DNA from: a virus
Strand: one strand, 5' to 3'
Length of the DNA stretch: 35,849 bases
Virus record (IMG/VR): IMGVR_UViG_3300048833_000178
Coordinates: 1 to 35,849 of that record
The notes under the pieces are model-generated. The model ran no database searches and had not been told where the DNA came from. It saw nothing but the letters and a program-made list of their open reading frames with translations. The position numbers and the translations under genes were made by a program. Shown here in pieces: positions 1 through 35,453 of the stretch (the first letter of the stretch is position 1; each line of letters starts with the position of its first letter).

Positions 1-962
1 GACGCGGGCTGGGGGATCGGGTCGTCGTGCCCGGGAAGCCCGAGGTCGCCGCCGATGCCGGCGGAGAGGCGCTCGACGTCGACGGTGAGCGTGATGTGGG
101 GGCGTACGTCGTGGCGGGTGCCCAGCGCCCCGGTGTCGAGCAGGCGGACGGCGAGGTGGCCGAGGGCGACCGCGAGCAGGTGCGGACGACGGCGTCGGCG
201 CTCCCGGTCGGCCACCGGCCCGTCGCCCTCGACCCGGTCGCGCTCGGGCAGCGTGCCGGCGCGGTGCCAGGAGTCGATGGTCTGGTCGAGCGCGGTGAGC
301 AGCGCGGCCGCGGTCTCGGCGGAGAGGTAGCCGTCGACGAGGAACCCGGGACCGGACTCGGTCAGCCGCAGCCGCTGGTCGTCGTAGGAGTCGAGGACGG
401 CTTGCGCTGCCCCCTCGGGATCGACGAGGTGCTTGATCCGGCGGGCCGCCCGGCGTACGTCGGACACGGTGGCCCGCTCCGCCAGCGGCAGCAGGATCGC
501 CTCCGCCTCGGCCCGCCGCTGAGGCCGCTCGACCGCCGGGACGGTGCGCAGGGAGGTCTCGATGCCGGTCGTGATCGCGCGGACCTCGGCCCCGGTGACC
601 CGGCCGGCGAGCCAGGCCGACCCGGTGGTGGGGAAGTGGTGGGCGAGCTCGCTCGAGCGGGCGACGACGCCCGCGGCCTCGCCGGCGGACAGCCCCACGG
701 CGTCCTGCAGCCAGCGGGAGGTCGAGGTGTGGCCCAGGGGCAGGGTGGCGCTGGCGTGGGCGACCCCGGCCGCCACGGTGGCCACCGCTGAGGCGCGGTC
801 CGCGGCGCGGAAGACGGTCGCCGCGACCTCCGGGACAGCCGAGGGGTGCAGCCGGCTCAGCCCCCCGAGCGCGACCAGCTCGGCGAGGTGGGCAGCGGCC
901 CGCTCCAGCGCGGCCGCCGCATCGGCGACCGTCTGCGCCGGGGGTGCGGCCGTCGTGGTCAT
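1..962 (-). CDS. 13E12 repeat family (DUF222) protein, partial
   Basis: This is a leftward reading frame that starts at 962 and runs off the window edge; at least 320 residues are visible. The translated protein is Ala-rich and helical, with segments such as RPHLLAVALGHLAVRL and DVRPHITLTVDVERL, typical of the DUF222 part of actinobacterial 13E12 repeat proteins. Those proteins usually end in an HNH nuclease domain, which would lie outside this window. The ATG has no clear Shine-Dalgarno. A TAGGTT hexamer ends six bases before it, which suggests a leaderless transcript, and a damage-type promoter motif lies at 969-991. The gene is host-encoded and diverges from ssrA. Family assignment is from recognisable sequence style; its biochemical role is not established. 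Confidence 0.85.
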   Translation of the reverse strand, partial: MTTTAAPPAQTVADAAAALERAAAHLAELVALGGLSRLHPSAVPEVAATVFRAADRASAVATVAAGVAHASATLPLGHTSTSRWLQDAVGLSAGEAAGVVARSSELAHHFPTTGSAWLAGRVTGAEVRAITTGIETSLRTVPAVERPQRRAEAEAILLPLAERATVSDVRRAARRIKHLVDPEGAAQAVLDSYDDQRLRLTESGPGFLVDGYLSAETAAALLTALDQTIDSWHRAGTLPERDRVEGDGPVADRERRRRRPHLLAVALGHLAVRLLDTGALGTRHDVRPHITLTVDVERLSAGIGGDLGLPGHDDPIPQPA

Positions 963-968
963 GGGTCC

Positions 969-991
969 AACCTAGGGAGGGGGTCTGACAG
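969..991 (-). promoter_or_regulatory. Putative PafBC/RecA-independent damage-type promoter of the 13E12 gene
   Basis: Read leftward it shows TGTCAGAC, an 8-base spacer CCCCTCCC and TAGGTT, followed by six bases and the ATG at 962. The published RecA-independent DNA-damage promoter of mycobacteria is TTGTCRGTG-N8-TANNNT, bound by PafBC. The core TGTCRG, the spacer length and TANNNT all match; the last two bases of the first box do not. Confidence 0.6.
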
Positions 992-1141: not shown

Positions 1142-1508
1142 GGGGGTGATCGGTTTCGACTTCGTCTGTCGTGACGGGAGAAGCGGGCCGAGGACGCTGG
1201 TCATCTCGTGAACGATCCAGCACCTAAATACAAGTGCCAATTCTCAGCGCACTGACTTCGCCCTCGCCGCCTGAGCGAGCCCCGAAGTCCGTCAGCCCGG
1301 GGGCGTTCCCGCTCCGGATCCTGGCGTCAGCTAGGGAACTCACTGAAGCACCCGGTCACGGGGTGCGACAGGACATCACACAGTGACTGAGCCCGTCGGC
1401 AGCTTGCCTGCGTGACTGCCGGGGCCGAGAAACACACAGCAGGCTGCGCCCGGAGAATGCCCCGATCGCCAACGAAGGACGCGGGTTCGATTCCCGCCAC
1501 CTCCACCA
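1142..1508 (+). ncRNA. ssrA: Transfer-messenger RNA (tmRNA)
   Basis: tmRNA rescues stalled ribosomes with SmpB by adding a degradation tag. The 5' end GGGGGTG pairs with CACCTCC near the 3' end (one G-U pair) to make the acceptor stem. The T arm is GCGGG-TTCGATT-CCCGC at 1482-1498, and a CCA is encoded at 1506-1508. The tag frame at 1236-1274 reads ANSQRTDFALAA followed by TGA; the ALAA end is diagnostic. The length of 367 bases is normal. The last bases come from the phage side of attL, so the prophage rebuilds the gene. The exact resume codon (GCC at 1236) is inferred. Confidence 0.95.
1481..1506 (+). repeat. attL core (26-bp direct repeat, left copy)
   Basis: These 26 bases cover the T arm and 3' acceptor strand of ssrA. 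They are repeated without mismatch at 35428-35453, and flanking bases differ on both sides. Integration into the 3' end of tRNA or tmRNA genes is the usual choice of tyrosine integrases, and the integrase gene begins 100 bp inside this end. Confidence 0.93.
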
Positions 1509-1606: not shown

Positions 1607-2755
1607 GTGGCGAGCATCCACCCGCGCCCCAGCGGCTCCTACAAGGTCGCGTTCCGCCTCGAAGGGCGGCAACGGTCCATCACCGTCGCGTCCCTCGACG
1701 ACGCGGTGAAGGTCGTCGACCTCATCGACCGCTTCGGGCCCGCTGACGCGCTGCGCCTGGTCGATGCGCACGCCTCCACCCCTGCCTCTGTGCCCACCGT
1801 GGCCGAGCACCTGCGCGACTACGTCGCCCGCCTCGACGGCATCACCGACGGCACCCGCAAGGACTACCTCGCGCAGGTCGAGAACCGCGTCGCCGGCACA
1901 CCGCTCGGCGACCTGCCCATCACGCTCGTCACCCGCGACGCCGTGGCTGCGTGGCTTCGCGACCTGCCCGGCGCGACGAAGACGAAGCGCAACTACCACG
2001 CCCTCGTCTCCGCCGGCCTCGCCGCGGCCGTCGAGGCCGACCTCATCCCGAACAACCCGGCCAAGGGCATCCGCATCCGCCAGGCCGAACCCGTGCACGA
2101 CATGGTGATCCTCACTCCCGGCGAACTCGCCGTGCTCGTGGCCGAGATCGACCCGCGTTTCCAGCCGCTCGTCATCACCCTCGCGGGCACTGGACTGCGC
2201 TGGGGAGAAGCCACCGCGCTCCGGGTCGGCGACGTCGACCTGGACGCGCGCGTCCCCGTCGCTCACGTCACGAAGGCGTGGAAGCGCACCGGCTCGGGGC
2301 GCATGGAGCTCGGGCCGCCGAAGACTCGCGCCGGCGTTCGGACGGTGTCCCTCCCGCCAGAGGTCGTCGGAGTCATCCGCCCACTGGTCGAGGGGCGGCG
2401 CCAGGATGCCTGGCTGTTCTCCGGCGTGCAGGGGAATCCAGTGCGCGGCAACAACTTCCACGACCTCGTGTGGGGACCAGCGCTCGACCGCCTGAACGCC
2501 GACCGTGACGCAGAGGGGAACCTGGTCACGCCGCGCCTGACGAAGCGCCCACGTGCGCATGACCTCAGGCACTTCCACGCCTCGCAGCTCGTGGCGGCCG
2601 GCGTCCCGCTGAACGTCGTGCAGCGACGCCTGGGCCACGAGTCGATCAAGACGACGGTGGATCGCTACTCGCACCTGGCGCCCGACCACCTCGAGGTGTC
2701 CGCTGCCGCCGCCTCGCTCGGCCTGGTGCAGGCGGTCCCCGCGATCGAGTCCTAG
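1607..2755 (+). CDS. int: Tyrosine recombinase / phage integrase
   Basis: This 382-residue enzyme catalyses attP x attB integration into ssrA and, with a directionality factor, excision. Residues 1-50 form an arm-binding type N-terminus, about 62-160 the core-binding SAM-like domain, and 165-365 the catalytic domain. The catalytic set is visible: R198 (GTGLRWGE), K239, H318 and R321 (HDLR), H344 (LGHES) and the nucleophile Y354 (DRYSH). The start is GTG at 1607 with GGAGGA just upstream. It sits 100 bp from attL, the normal arrangement. No terminator is obvious between ssrA and int, so read-through from ssrA could contribute to expression in the lysogen (inference). Confidence 0.97.
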   Translation: MASIHPRPSGSYKVAFRLEGRQRSITVASLDDAVKVVDLIDRFGPADALRLVDAHASTPASVPTVAEHLRDYVARLDGITDGTRKDYLAQVENRVAGTPLGDLPITLVTRDAVAAWLRDLPGATKTKRNYHALVSAGLAAAVEADLIPNNPAKGIRIRQAEPVHDMVILTPGELAVLVAEIDPRFQPLVITLAGTGLRWGEATALRVGDVDLDARVPVAHVTKAWKRTGSGRMELGPPKTRAGVRTVSLPPEVVGVIRPLVEGRRQDAWLFSGVQGNPVRGNNFHDLVWGPALDRLNADRDAEGNLVTPRLTKRPRAHDLRHFHASQLVAAGVPLNVVQRRLGHESIKTTVDRYSHLAPDHLEVSAAAASLGLVQAVPAIES

Positions 2756-2832: not shown

Positions 2833-3453
2833 ATGCGGCGCGTCATGATCGCGGCGGTTGCAGTGTCGATCGTTCTGGCCGGATGCGGGACGGCCGGCGA
2901 GCCAGGGACTAGCACCTCGCCCACGACGGCCGCGCCCACGACTTCGGCAGTCGAGTCGCCCAGTCCGCCCGCTGCACCGGCCACTCCCGCGGACGGAGGC
3001 ATGGTCGGCCCGTGGGTCGCAGACTCCGCTGGGCTGAAGGTCTCGGTGGCGTTCGACCTCGCGGCCGCCGCGGCGACGACGCAGGCAGCCGAGTTGTGCC
3101 GGAAGGCCATGAAGGGCGACCCGGTCGTGTGGGTGCTGATCCAGGTGGAGAACGCGTCTGGCTCGGCCGCGACTGTGTCCGCGCCGACGGTGGTGACCGG
3201 TGACGGGCGCCAGGTGAGCACCGACAACGCCGTGACGACGATCGGCGACTGGTACGTCGACGCCCCCGACTCGAAGGCGCGTGAGGACTGCGTGGCGACG
3301 GCGCAGGCGGTGGCGGAGAGTCAGATCGAGTCAGGGACCCAGCCCGGCGCGACCTTGCTCGCACTTCACTCCCTGCCTGCCGACGTCGAGACCGTCAAGC
3401 TCGTCACCGCGGGCGGACCGGCCGGTCCCCTGGAGTTCGTCTACACGCCGTAG
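2833..3453 (+). CDS. Secreted lipoprotein, lysogen-expressed candidate
   Basis: The 206-residue product starts with a short charged MRR, a hydrophobic stretch and the lipobox LAGC, giving lipidation at C18. A Thr/Ser/Pro/Ala-rich linker (about 20-55) follows, then a globular domain of about 150 residues with VWVLIQVENASGSAATV, reminiscent of DUF4352-like immunoglobulin-fold lipoproteins. GAGGGGGA precedes the ATG. It lies directly downstream of int, where temperate phages of actinobacteria often carry lysogeny-expressed surface proteins, some of which exclude superinfecting phage. That role is only an inference from position; no catalytic motif is seen. Confidence 0.8.
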   Translation: MRRVMIAAVAVSIVLAGCGTAGEPGTSTSPTTAAPTTSAVESPSPPAAPATPADGGMVGPWVADSAGLKVSVAFDLAAAAATTQAAELCRKAMKGDPVVWVLIQVENASGSAATVSAPTVVTGDGRQVSTDNAVTTIGDWYVDAPDSKAREDCVATAQAVAESQIESGTQPGATLLALHSLPADVETVKLVTAGGPAGPLEFVYTP

Positions 3454-3473
3454 TCAGACCCCCTCCCTACCCT
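3451..3473 (+). promoter_or_regulatory. Putative damage-type promoter of the DUF3263 gene
   Basis: The stretch GTCAGACCCCCTCCCTA (3453-3469) is identical over 17 bases to the sequence ahead of the host 13E12 gene. It reads TAGTCAGAC, N8, TACCCT, then seven bases to the ATG at 3481. It overlaps the stop codon of the lipoprotein gene. The first box lacks one T of the TGTCRG consensus. Confidence 0.55.
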
Positions 3474-3480
3474 CAGCCAC

Positions 3481-3726
3481 ATGCCCCTCTCCGACCTCGA
3501 GCGCGACGTCCTCGACTTCGCCGGCACGACCTGGCGGTACGCGGGCGCGCGCGAGGCGGCCATCCGGGAGCGCTTCGGGCTCTCGGCGACGCGCTACCAC
3601 CAGCTGCTCAACGGCCTGCTCGACCGGCCGGAGGCGTGGGCCTACTCACCGGTCACGGTGAAGCGGCTGCGGCGGCTGCGGGAGCAGCGGACGGCCGCGC
3701 GGTCCGTGGCTAGGGTGCGGACATGA
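3481..3726 (+). CDS. DUF3263 domain protein
   Basis: The 81-residue product matches the actinobacterial DUF3263 family: LDFAGTTWRYAGAREAAIRERF, then LSATRYHQLLNGLLDRPEA and a basic VKRLRRLREQR tail. The family resembles a small HTH-like DNA-binding protein and has no established biochemical function. No Shine-Dalgarno precedes the ATG; TACCCT ends seven bases upstream, so a leaderless mRNA is likely. The TGA overlaps the next start (ATGA), so the two genes are translationally coupled. The promoter shared with the host 13E12 gene suggests damage-linked expression. Confidence 0.85.
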   Translation: MPLSDLERDVLDFAGTTWRYAGAREAAIRERFGLSATRYHQLLNGLLDRPEAWAYSPVTVKRLRRLREQRTAARSVARVRT

Positions 3727-3932
3727 ACTCGGAGGCTGAGTACCGCGCGGCCGGCTACGTGCGAAGCCATGAGCGGACGCGTCAGACGCGCCCGTGTGGC
3801 CGTTGTGGCGGTCCGGCCGACCTCGAGTGGGTCAAGTCCGGTCACCTGGGTGAGGAGTGGTGGCGCGTGGGAGTGAGGGCCACGTGTCGCGATGAGGACT
3901 GCCGAAAGGGGCGCACGTCACGCGACGCGTGA
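3723..3932 (+). CDS. Small zinc-ribbon-like protein
   Basis: The 69-residue product has a CGRCGG knuckle at about 26-31 and a second cysteine pair, CRDEDC, at about 57-62. It probably binds one zinc ion. The start overlaps the stop of the DUF3263 gene by four bases (ATGA), implying coupled translation. TAGGGT lies six bases before the ATG, so a secondary leaderless transcript is possible. Its 3' end overlaps the convergent gene at 3918 by 15 bases. Function unknown. Confidence 0.75.
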   Translation: MNSEAEYRAAGYVRSHERTRQTRPCGRCGGPADLEWVKSGHLGEEWWRVGVRATCRDEDCRKGRTSRDA

Positions 3933-4866: not shown

Positions 4867-4918
4867 GACCCGATGGGGGACGGGAGCGATTCGAGCGCTC
4901 CCGTCCCACCGTCGGGTC
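4867..4918 (-). promoter_or_regulatory. Long intercistronic hairpin between toxin and antitoxin genes
   Basis: A 12-bp perfect stem (4877-4888 with 4896-4907, loop of seven) is extended by a second 7-bp arm pair, gacccga (4867-4873) with tcgggtc (4912-4918). The stem begins at the toxin stop codon. It could terminate, pause or stabilise the transcript between the two genes; no U tract is seen. Confidence 0.7.
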
Positions 4919-5120
4919 AGCGGCGGGGCGGCCACTGGAAGCCCGCCCTCTTGAGCGGCGCGAGTCCGTTGAGCAGCGCCCGACGATCGCCTGGTGTCCC
5001 CGAGAGGGTCGAGAGCAGGACGCCGTCCTTGTAGACGCGGAGGTGCCCGCGCTTGGTGGGGACGACGTCGAATCCCTGATCCTCGAGGGCCTTGACGATC
5101 TGCCTGACCTCGTTCGCCAT
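4917..5120 (-). CDS. HicA-like mRNA interferase toxin
   Basis: The 67-residue product shows the dsRBD-like HicA layout: helix (VRQIVKALEDQGF), strands VVPTKRGHLRVYKDG with the conserved catalytic-type histidine H26, then STLSGTPGDRRALLNGLAPLKRAGF. HicA proteins cleave mRNA and are neutralised by a HicB-type partner encoded downstream, here the HTH gene at 4280-4831. GGAGGTG precedes the ATG. The upstream region contains a perfect palindrome and a repeated TTGACAAGG box. The family's usual GxSHxxF motif is altered to KRGHLRVY, so activity is uncertain. Confidence 0.75.
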   Translation of the reverse strand: MANEVRQIVKALEDQGFDVVPTKRGHLRVYKDGVLLSTLSGTPGDRRALLNGLAPLKRAGFQWPPRR

Positions 5121-5140
5121 TCTGTATCACCTCCTTTGGT

Positions 5141-5183
5141 TTGACAAGGTCAAGCGTATCACATGCCTTGCTATTTGACAAGG
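5141..5183. promoter_or_regulatory. Operator/promoter region of the toxin-antitoxin operon
   Basis: The perfect palindrome TTGAC-AAG-GTCAA lies at 5141-5153 and the box TTGACAAGG is repeated at 5175-5183, 34 bp away. A second inverted pair, CCTTG and CAAGG, spans 5166-5183. Leftward, TTGTCA with GATACG about 15 bases downstream gives a plausible -35/-10 pair overlapping the repeats. The HTH gene product is the natural candidate repressor. Confidence 0.6.
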
Positions 5184-5270
5184 CGCCATGAGGGGGACCT
5201 GCCGGGACGCTCTGGTACGTTGCGTCGTGCGCAGGCGGGGGCCTCGCGCACGGGGATGAGGGGGCTCATC

Positions 5271-6142: not shown

Positions 6143-6673
6143 TCAGCGACGTGAGGGGAAGGGCAGCGGGTAGCGCCACTCTCGCGGCGCATCCTCCCCC
6201 TCGGTGATCCATGAGACCGTGATCGTGAAGTCCGACGTCGCCAGTGACGGCGCGGCCATGAAGGACAGAGCCTCGCCAGGGTCCAGGCGGTCGGGCTGCG
6301 GTCCCGTGGCGAGCAGGGGAAGCGTGTCATCGGCGGAGACGGCAAGGCTTGTGGCCGCTGCGGTCCCAACGTTCTCGACGATGTAGGTGTCACCCGCCTG
6401 GTGGCTCAGGCTCCATCGGACAGCGGATGGGGCCATAGGTGCGCCACCTATGCCCTGTCGTGCCATCGCCTCGAGAGCATCCACGACGCGCGCGGTGTAA
6501 CCCTCCGTGAGCCGGGCGGCCGCTTCCGCGCGCGAGGCCGTGTTCTCGGCGTTCTCTCGCTCGAGCTTCTGCCCACGCAGGGTCAGGACGAAGGACGCCA
6601 CCACGCCGGACAGGGCCACGATCGTGGCGAGGGCCTCCCAGTCGACCGGGGAGTTGATGAGGCTCAGCAGCAT
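6143..6673 (-). CDS. Single-pass membrane protein with coiled coil and beta domain
   Basis: The 176-residue product has one membrane segment (about 11-33, WEALATIVALSGVVASFVL), then a charged helical stretch rich in Glu/Arg/Ala (about 35-70) likely to form a coiled coil, and a C-terminal beta-sandwich-like domain (about 80-170). The ATG at 6673 has no Shine-Dalgarno; TACCTT ends seven bases upstream and a damage-type first box precedes it, so a leaderless message is likely. It lies between the late-operon terminator and the convergent secreted nuclease, with only 17 bp between the two stops. Function unknown; a superinfection-exclusion or sensor role would be speculation. Confidence 0.75.
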   Translation of the reverse strand: MLLSLINSPVDWEALATIVALSGVVASFVLTLRGQKLERENAENTASRAEAAARLTEGYTARVVDALEAMARQGIGGAPMAPSAVRWSLSHQAGDTYIVENVGTAAATSLAVSADDTLPLLATGPQPDRLDPGEALSFMAAPSLATSDFTITVSWITEGEDAPREWRYPLPFPSRR

Positions 6674-6680
6674 GACGCTG

Positions 6681-6703
6681 AAGGTACCGGTGGTGGCCGA
6701 CAC
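6681..6703 (-). promoter_or_regulatory. Putative damage-type promoter of the membrane-protein gene
   Basis: Read leftward: TGTCGGCC, an 8-base spacer ACCACCGG, TACCTT, then seven bases to ATG 6673. TGTCRG, N8 after the 8-base box and TANNNT match the RecA-independent damage promoter consensus. Confidence 0.55.
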
Positions 6704-6734
6704 GTCGAGGGTCGTGCGGGCTCCGGCAACGACG

Positions 6735-6779
6735 AAAGCCCCCGCCCGCCCGCAGCCTCTGCTACGGACAGACGGGGGC
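6735..6779 (-). terminator. Terminator at the end of the late operon
   Basis: Stem GCCCCC at 6774-6779 pairs with GGGGGC at 6738-6743 on the leftward transcript, followed by UUUCGUC. It lies 16 bp beyond the stop of the last lysis-cassette gene and just before the separately promoted membrane-protein gene. Confidence 0.75.
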
Positions 6780-6794
6780 ATCGTTCGGGCGGGG

Positions 6795-34386: not shown

Positions 34387-34415
34387 AACCTAGGGCAAAG
34401 ATTTGCCAGTGTCCA
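34387..34415 (-). promoter_or_regulatory. Leftward switch promoter with operator in its spacer
   Basis: Leftward, -35 TGGACA (34410-34415), a spacer of exactly 17 bases and -10 TAGGTT (34387-34392) precede the leaderless ATG. The operator GGCAAAGATTTGCC occupies 34394-34407, inside the spacer, so a bound repressor would block RNA polymerase directly. Confidence 0.75.
34394..34407. promoter_or_regulatory. Operator O1 (GGCAAA-N2-TTTGCC)
   Basis: A perfect 14-bp dyad within the leftward promoter. The same arms recur at 34436-34449 with a different central pair. The centres are 42 bp apart, four helical turns, so two bound dimers would sit on the same DNA face. Confidence 0.85.
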
Positions 34416-34435
34416 CCACTTGAGTGACAGAAGTG

Positions 34436-34449
34436 GGCAAACATTTGCC
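34436..34449. promoter_or_regulatory. Operator O2 (GGCAAA-N2-TTTGCC)
   Basis: The second perfect dyad with arms identical to O1. Its position, upstream of both promoters, would suit cooperative binding. Single TTTGCC half sites also occur at 34519-34524 and 34539-34544. Confidence 0.85.
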
Positions 34450-34569
34450 TGACCTGCGGAAGCACACGGCTGTCAGTAGTCCCAGCGGGGTCAACGATTC
34501 CGACTTACACGGGCGACGTTTGCCCCCTGCGAGTGGACTTTGCCGAAACTTTGGCGTCATCCTCGGCAC

Positions 34570-34893
34570 GTGGACACCGCAGCCGAGATCCGTCGCCGAA
34601 GAGTCGACCTGATGTGGTCCCAGGCCGACCTGGGCAACCGCGCTGGGTACAGCGAGGAGACGATCCGCAAGATCGAGGCCGGGATCCATGTCCGACCCAA
34701 GACTCTCCAGGGCGTCCTCGGCGCACTCGACGCGGGGGAGGCCGGTGTCGTACCCGGTGGGCAGAGTGGGCGACCAGCGCTGAACATCCCCGAGGCTGCA
34801 CTCGAAGGACTCAGCGCCGAGCAGCTGGCAGAGCTCGAGGCTCGGCTGACCGCCGAAGCATGGCGAGCGCGACGGGAGTTCCTGGGGGGTTGA
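34570..34893 (+). CDS. Phage immunity repressor (XRE family)
   Basis: The 107-residue product has an N-terminal helix-turn-helix (about 17-38, SQADLGNRAGYSEETIRKIEAG) and a C-terminal helical part (ALEGLSAEQLAELEARLTAEAWRARRE) for dimerisation. GTG 34570 is preferred; CATCCT lies six bases upstream with TGGACT as a possible -35. It overlaps the ImmA-type protease gene by TGATG, the ImmR/ImmA arrangement in which protease cleavage relieves repression after DNA damage. It is the natural binder of the two operators. Confidence 0.83.
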   Translation: MDTAAEIRRRRVDLMWSQADLGNRAGYSEETIRKIEAGIHVRPKTLQGVLGALDAGEAGVVPGGQSGRPALNIPEAALEGLSAEQLAELEARLTAEAWRARREFLGG

Positions 34894-35318
34894 TGCGCTA
34901 CGACCCGTGGCGGGATGCGGGGGAGCGTCACGCGGACGTCGTCATCAGACGCACCAACTGCCTGCCTGCGCGCGGGGCGTGGCTCGAAGGCCCTCGCGTG
35001 ATCCTCATCGAGCGGTCACTGCATCGACCCGAGCGCAACAGCGTCCTCGCCCACGAGATCGCGCACGTCGACCTCGGTCACCGGGTCACAGGCCGGCGCT
35101 GGTTCGACCGCCGCCAGGAGCGCGACGCCGACAACCTCGCGGCACTGCGCCTCGTCGACCTAGAGCGCCTGGCCGACGCGCTGCGCTGGGCGCTGTGCCC
35201 GGAGGAGGTCGCGCACGAGCTCGAGGTCACGGTCGACGTCGTGCGCCGGCGCATCCGGTCGCTGACGGACGAGGAGAAGGCGAGGATCGAGCAGCTGCTC
35301 GAGCGCAAGGCCTCCTGA
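34893..35318 (+). CDS. ImmA/IrrE-family metallopeptidase
   Basis: The 141-residue product carries the zinc motif HEIAH (H54, E55, H58) and a downstream ERDAD acidic pair (about 76-80). The C-terminal half has a winged-helix look (PEEVAHELEVTVDVVRRRIRSLT). Peptidases of this family cleave the adjoining repressor, as ImmA does in ICEBs1, to induce excision. The ATG shares a base with the repressor stop, so the two are co-translated. Confidence 0.9.
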   Translation: MRYDPWRDAGERHADVVIRRTNCLPARGAWLEGPRVILIERSLHRPERNSVLAHEIAHVDLGHRVTGRRWFDRRQERDADNLAALRLVDLERLADALRWALCPEEVAHELEVTVDVVRRRIRSLTDEEKARIEQLLERKAS

Positions 35319-35427: not shown

Positions 35428-35453
35428 GCGGGTTCGATTCCCGCCACCTCCAC
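35428..35453 (+). repeat. attR core (26-bp direct repeat, right copy)
   Basis: Identical to 1481-1506. It is the displaced end of host ssrA: T arm and acceptor strand, then TCACTAG instead of the CCA found at attL. The host copy therefore did not encode CCA. Confidence 0.93.

Follow-up and report, generated by a model that had tools for sequence, protein, structure and literature searches.

PafBC binds single-stranded DNA (ssDNA), is activated by it and adapts sigma-A RNA polymerase to a distinct type of promoter (PMC11804915), in mycobacteria RecA-NDp or recA P1. The published consensus is tTGTCRgtg-8nt-TannnT (PMC5656591), thus ten nucleotides lie between TGTCRG and TA; an alternative consensus reads TGTCGG/TGTCAG/TGTCAC-10xN-TA-3xN-T, and M. 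tuberculosis tolerates TGTCAG and TGTCAC too (PMC8151990). NapA (Rv0430) of M. tuberculosis is a transcription regulator with a preference for AT-rich DNA, on which it forms a coat that turns the DNA into rigid rods (PMC7177045). Both DNA protection and transcription regulation are ascribed to it (PMC10665949, PMC7177045), and PDB entry 9n2n presents NapA in complex with AT-rich DNA. The ImmR/ImmA switch of ICEBs1 and Gram-positive phages combines an XRE repressor with a following HExxH peptidase of the IrrE/ImmA family. In lambda-type SOS induction, the prophage reads the DNA-damage signal of the host via RecA/LexA, with RecA as co-protease.

The window, the whole analysed stretch of 35,849 nucleotides from the IMG/VR record IMGVR_UViG_3300048833_000178, shares elements with each of these systems. 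Its sites have the 10-nt spacing and the TANNNT hexamer of mycobacterial PafBC promoters and, with one mismatch at the DUF3263 gene, their TGTCRG box, as found before recA, uvrB and ssb in the relative G001, but here a promoter is owned by a prophage, its dependence on PafBC is proposed, and the box is followed by ACC in this lineage and by TG in mycobacteria. The DUF3263 protein of the phage shares with NapA a 74-residue homology and, as predicted, an all-helical DNA-binding fold; it differs in its phage origin, its length of 81 aa, its position outside the chromosomal clade and a damage-type promoter, which is missing from 29 of 30 chromosomal copies. The window resembles the ImmR/ImmA switch in its XRE repressor and HExxH peptidase (34540-35318). 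Other actinophages have the peptidase gene downstream of a PafBC-type promoter, in one operon with DUF3263; the phage of the window has it coupled with the repressor gene. Like a lambda-type prophage, this one would read a host damage signal, but the proposed signal is the activation of PafBC by ssDNA and not the RecA co-protease. We consider it quite probable that positions 3452-3473 are a prophage-owned, damage-inducible promoter, dependent on PafBC and independent of RecA/LexA.

Gene order and promoter-like sites in the prophage

The DUF222 gene at the left end lies beside the tmRNA gene. Its ortholog in the Micrococcales MAG Ww176 (L003/G001) is 84% identical, also adjoins tmRNA and is preceded by an identical 22-mer promoter; the left flank is evidently host DNA. 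In the circular phage DNA, the order would be repressor, ImmA, attP, integrase, lipoprotein, DUF3263 and Cys-rich protein (Table 1). The DUF3263 gene and the gene of the Cys-rich protein, for which family searches gave no match, form one predicted transcription unit. As the initial annotation had recognized, this unit stands apart from the repressor of the phage: repressor and ImmA are encoded at the opposite prophage end, and no PafBC motif was present at this pair in the window. A placement of ImmA under a PafBC motif was rejected for this phage, as its start overlaps the repressor stop. The ImmA-DUF3263 operon of other actinophages is absent from the window; the two genes are separated, and the promoter is located at DUF3263 only.

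Table 1. Coordinates of host, phage and promoter features in the window
Feature	Position	Strand	Remarks
Host DUF222 (13E12) gene, N-terminal part	3..962	minus	PF02720, E 1e-15; runs off the window
Host PafBC-type promoter of the DUF222/13E12 gene	969..990	minus	TGTCAG-ACCCCCTCCC-TAGGTT-GGACCC-ATG; 9/9 key bases; 6 nt from -10 hexamer to ATG 962-960
tmRNA gene, prophage attachment site	1142..1508	plus	
attL core, 26 bp	1481..1506	plus	repeat of the tmRNA 3' end, identical to 35428-35453
Tyrosine integrase	1607..2755	plus	PF00589
Putative lipoprotein	2833..3453	plus	weak PHROG match only
Phage PafBC-type promoter of the DUF3263 gene	3452..3473	plus	AGTCAG-ACCCCCTCCC-TACCCT-CAGCCAC-ATG; 8/9 key bases; 7 nt from -10 to ATG 3481
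DUF3263 gene	3481..3726	plus	PF11662, E 2e-32
Small Cys-rich (zinc-ribbon-like) protein	3723..3932	plus	start overlaps DUF3263 stop (ATGA)
Protein of 176 aa, putative single membrane helix at the N-terminus	6143..6673	minus	start proposed at 6673 rather than 6781
Third PafBC-type site, perfect	6681..6702	minus	TGTCGG-CCACCACCGG-TACCTT; whole site (6702-6681) TGTCGGCCACCACCGGTACCTT; 7 nt ahead of ATG 6673
Strong terminator-like hairpin	6715..6790	minus	directly upstream of the third site; MFE -52.3 kcal/mol, z -5.2
XRE-type repressor	34540..34893	plus	HTH_3; PHROG transcriptional regulator
ImmA/IrrE metallopeptidase (HEIAH)	34893..35318	plus	PF06114, E 1e-10; phrog_87; start overlaps repressor stop
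attR core	35428..35453	plus	identical 26-bp repeat

Two exact copies of the 17-bp block GTCAGACCCCCTCCCTA are present in the window, at 973-989 on the minus and at 3453-3469 on the plus strand. None of 100 dinucleotide shuffles of the window gave two matches to it, even with three mismatches permitted. The initial annotation had described this identity correctly, with the host copy displaced by two positions (975-991). It had also assigned both copies the same distance to their ATGs; the two distances are close, but not identical (6 nt for the host, 7 nt for the phage gene). The pattern it had used, TGTCRG-N8-TANNNT, goes back to a misread consensus: eight nucleotides placed directly behind TGTCRG match nothing, whereas both sites fit N10. 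With this correction, the promoter type and the near-leaderless spacing were supported, and the family names were confirmed, 13E12 corresponding to DUF222 (PF02720) next to DUF3263 (PF11662).

The 10-nt spacing between box and TANNNT hexamer is common to the host, DUF3263 and 6702 sites. The box is perfect at the host and 6702 sites; the DUF3263 site has its sole mismatch in the first box base (AGTCAG, A for T), and the TAG stop of the upstream lipoprotein gene overlaps this box. Four starts in the window had a site with at least 8/9 key bases at leaderless spacing, against a mean of 0.52 in Markov-resampled windows, and three of the four open real genes; two starts had a 9/9 site, against a mean of 0.03. 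An 8/9 site at 5200 is followed only by a 10-codon frame and was put down to chance.

The membrane protein behind the third site belongs to no Pfam family. The hairpin, absent from the list of a simple terminator scan, stands between the third site and the upstream gene, which is taken as an endolysin from its sequence though it has no Pfam match. Separated in this way, the membrane-protein gene is apparently an independent transcription unit, and probably a leaderless one. A weak similarity (E 0.01) connects its product to gp41 of PrincePatrick, encoded between repressor and ImmA in PrincePatrick. Inverted repeats GGCAAA-NN-TTTGCC at 34390-34455, between a divergent HTH gene and the repressor, are probable immunity operators. 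A small gene at 4917-5147 (minus), weakly similar to HicA toxins below the Pfam cut-off, adjoins an HTH_17 gene and has a promoter-like TTGTCA-N17-CAGAAT site upstream.

DUF3263, NapA and the distribution of the motif

The DUF3263 protein of the window scored 111.5 bits against PF11662 (cut-off 22.3) and matched M. tuberculosis NapA (PDB 9n2n/9n2g) over 74 residues with an E value of 3e-21. Its predicted structure is all-helical (pLDDT 86). In a fold search with this model, NapA was the sole family clearly over background, the remaining rows being weak and uninformative. Predicted fold and sequence alike point to NapA (Rv0430) as a homolog, which would give a family without a function in PHROGs a named relative. 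A solved DUF3263 homolog carries the label Fis-family regulator. By homology to the solved NapA-DNA complex, the phage protein is a putative binder and stiffener of AT-rich DNA. In a tree of few columns and weak resolution, its neighbours were L120 and further copies of phage or mobile type, and the chromosomal clade did not include it; a recent acquisition from the host chromosome was rejected on this placement, with the same caution as to the tree.

DUF3263 was present in 260 phage records, nearly all from phages of Gordonia, Arthrobacter and Mycobacterium, usually in the order repressor - ImmA/IrrE - DUF3263 - integrase; in many phages the gene adjoins or overlaps the integrase gene. Among 22 phage records sampled for diversity, 20 had a site with at least 8/9 key bases 5-9 nt ahead of an in-frame ImmA or DUF3263 start (9/9 in 13, 8/9 in seven), a count that overstates independence, as the rows are partly related. 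In Faja, Shoya and MinS1, where ImmA was not found, the site precedes DUF3263 itself. A perfect site was present in 15 of 17 related IMG/VR viral contigs, largely of one kind and including L011 and L020, which the automated scan had passed over through its choice of a different frame. Only one of 30 chromosomal DUF3263 genes reached 8/9, at a TTG start, the other 29 being without the promoter; second DUF3263 copies in Micrococcales genomes reached at least 8/9 in five of nine cases. For 20/22 against 1/30, Fisher's test gave a p of 4e-11, a value that describes the difference but is no true probability, because the rows share ancestry in part. A scan upstream of DUF3263 genes had been suggested as a check in the initial annotation, and the comparative evidence exceeds by far what was claimed there.

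Within whole phage records, the site before DUF3263 or ImmA is normally the sole strict site or one of two, and the reversed pattern gave two matches in 27 records. The 10-nt spacers vary widely between phage groups, box, -10 hexamer and spacing being constant, which suggests selection on the motif. The site was absent in GMA4, one fecal phage, L005 and several second DUF3263 copies, and L004 reached 6/9 only. For six loci (L037, L049, L035, L046, L038, L051), the annotated ImmA or DUF3263 starts lie apparently too early or too late, and a leaderless in-frame start past the motif fits better. Phages of Gordonia and Mycobacterium with differing repressors (L035-L050, L052, L053, L056, L006, L007, L011) have in common an element of roughly the form TTACA-N5-TGTAATTCCTGGTCA, located some 20-45 nt ahead of the PafBC-type box; the window, Faja, Shoya, L119, L120, L124 and L004 lack it. 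Before the ImmA promoter, its GTAATT begins 24-26 nt ahead of the box; the element may be an operator, recognized by DUF3263 or by a factor of the host. In L123 and L124, from different genomes, second-copy DUF3263 genes adjoin a gene for a DnaQ-like exonuclease.

The relative G001 (Micrococcales MAG Ww176), standing in for the host of the window, has two adjacent WYL-domain genes; among solved structures, their products matched PafB and PafC best, with E values of 2e-63 and 3e-52 against the PafBC chains in the RNA polymerase complex (9fnd/7p5x). Fourteen strict motif sites were detected in G001 and none with the reversed control pattern. These sites precede recA, uvrB, sbcD, ssb and DUF222 genes, two further ones have an SOS-box-like sequence nearby, and the gap from the -10 hexamer to ATG is 6 nt for uvrB and the readable DUF222 genes. 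G018 resembles G001, with the motif ahead of recA and radA; repair genes in both were identified by their translated N-termini. Strict sites before repair genes in both genomes imply that TGTCRG-N10-TANNNT marks a damage regulon in the host lineage. The initial annotation had counted 13E12 genes as known members of the mycobacterial PafBC regulon; by sequence, the association of DUF222 genes with the motif holds for the Micrococcales relatives only, and a study of M. tuberculosis places five putative HNH endonuclease genes among the RecA-dependent ones (PMC8151990). In G008, G009 and G019-G021 the reversed control was as common as the motif, so that in such genomes of the family a lone strict match is no proof and genome-wide counts are uninformative.

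Proposed damage response and competing explanations

From motif, spacing, conservation, gene order, the PafB and PafC genes of the host relative and the NapA homology, we infer PafBC binding, induction by damage, a leaderless start and a role in prophage induction. Damage would expose ssDNA, which is bound by PafBC; with PafBC as adaptor, sigma-A RNA polymerase would recognize the TGTCRG box together with the TANNNT hexamer. Transcription from or beside ATG 3481 would yield a leaderless mRNA for DUF3263 and the small Cys-rich protein, and the same PafBC signal would act on the membrane-protein unit (6673-6143) and on the neighbouring DUF222 gene of the host. In the wider actinophages, the promoter would drive ImmA/IrrE and DUF3263 beside repressor and integrase. 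ImmA may then lower the repressor by cleavage, as ImmA relatives do, and the NapA-like protein may open or rearrange the prophage DNA for early transcription, excision or both. Since ImmA is coupled to the repressor in the phage of the window, what both arrangements place behind the proposed damage promoter is DUF3263. In our best reading, temperate actinophages have linked a NapA-like protein, mostly in combination with the ImmA protease, to the RecA-independent damage response of the host. That the ImmA-DUF3263 module couples the departure from lysogeny to this second damage response has, in our judgement, an even chance of being correct. We are equally divided over the broader proposal that the large actinophage set of the 260 DUF3263 records may sense damage via PafBC and not RecA, with ImmA and NapA-like effectors ending lysogeny.

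The promoter may be real and DUF3263 nevertheless a lysogenic accessory which aids the damaged lysogen by nucleoid protection, regulation of host repair or superinfection control. Such a role agrees with the DNA protection and transcription regulation by the chromosomal homolog NapA (PMC10665949, PMC7177045), with the separation of the DUF3263 unit from the repressor in the window and with the membrane-protein gene under the same signal; the position of DUF3263 in actinophages, always close to the genes for repressor, ImmA and integrase, speaks against it, and we find this explanation rather doubtful. The frequent contact or overlap with the integrase gene, the Fis-family label of a solved homolog and its binding of AT-rich DNA would suit a damage-induced architectural helper of the integrase, a Fis-like excision factor. 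However, DUF3263 accompanies tyrosine as well as serine integrases, whose accessory proteins differ, and excisionase-like genes are also present, thus we regard a helper function as unlikely. A chance resemblance of two C-rich intergenic stretches in a GC-rich genome could be argued from the mismatch in the phage site and from the random appearance of the 8/9 window sites at 5200, 30171 and 31062, but the shuffling and resampling controls and the comparative phage counts make it highly improbable.

A conserved PafBC-type promoter on a lysogeny operon allows a direct and cheap test in M. smegmatis lysogens. If it is confirmed, phage genes join the PafBC regulon, and many annotated phage start codons have to be corrected. 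No paper joining PafBC with a phage or prophage was found in a search of open-access literature, and a use of the PafBC alarm by viruses is not known from earlier work.

Origin of the promoter sequence

The initial annotation had suggested that the phage may have captured a host damage promoter. As a one-off event in this phage the capture does not hold, because the promoter position is common to most sampled phage DUF3263 operons; moreover, the two copies diverge immediately on either side of the block. What stands is the association of the exact 17-mer with DUF222 genes and the low probability of an independent origin of the spacer. In 166 genomes of the order, GTCAGACCCCCTCCCTA was found at four places. 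Three of these lead into DUF222 genes; the gene at the fourth is truncated where the contig stops and has a frame with a DUF222-like beginning. IMG/VR contained no exact copy beyond the record of the window; as an exact sequence, the block is therefore not common to phages at large. A search for close relatives by the Cys-rich protein or the integrase yielded none useful for footprinting within the same phage species.

These findings leave room for a local borrowing, with a host DUF222/13E12 promoter as the source of the phage promoter sequence, which perhaps replaced an older phage promoter at this place. The DUF222 gene adjoins the prophage, and the spacer has a probability of about 2e-4 to 9e-4 under mobile-DUF3263 or repair-gene sites against 3e-2 by matrix (7/16 by count) under DUF222 sites, all from small matrices. 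Against a borrowing, the identity breaks off at both ends of the motif, with A against T in front and CCCT against GGTT behind, and the recA spacers of the lineage differ at only two of ten positions, in small samples; we put it forward tentatively, as the less probable course. It concerns the origin of the sequence and is compatible with a PafBC promoter, which does not need it. Other phage DUF3263 genes have the promoter at the equal place with other spacers, thus the promoter itself is older than any borrowing.
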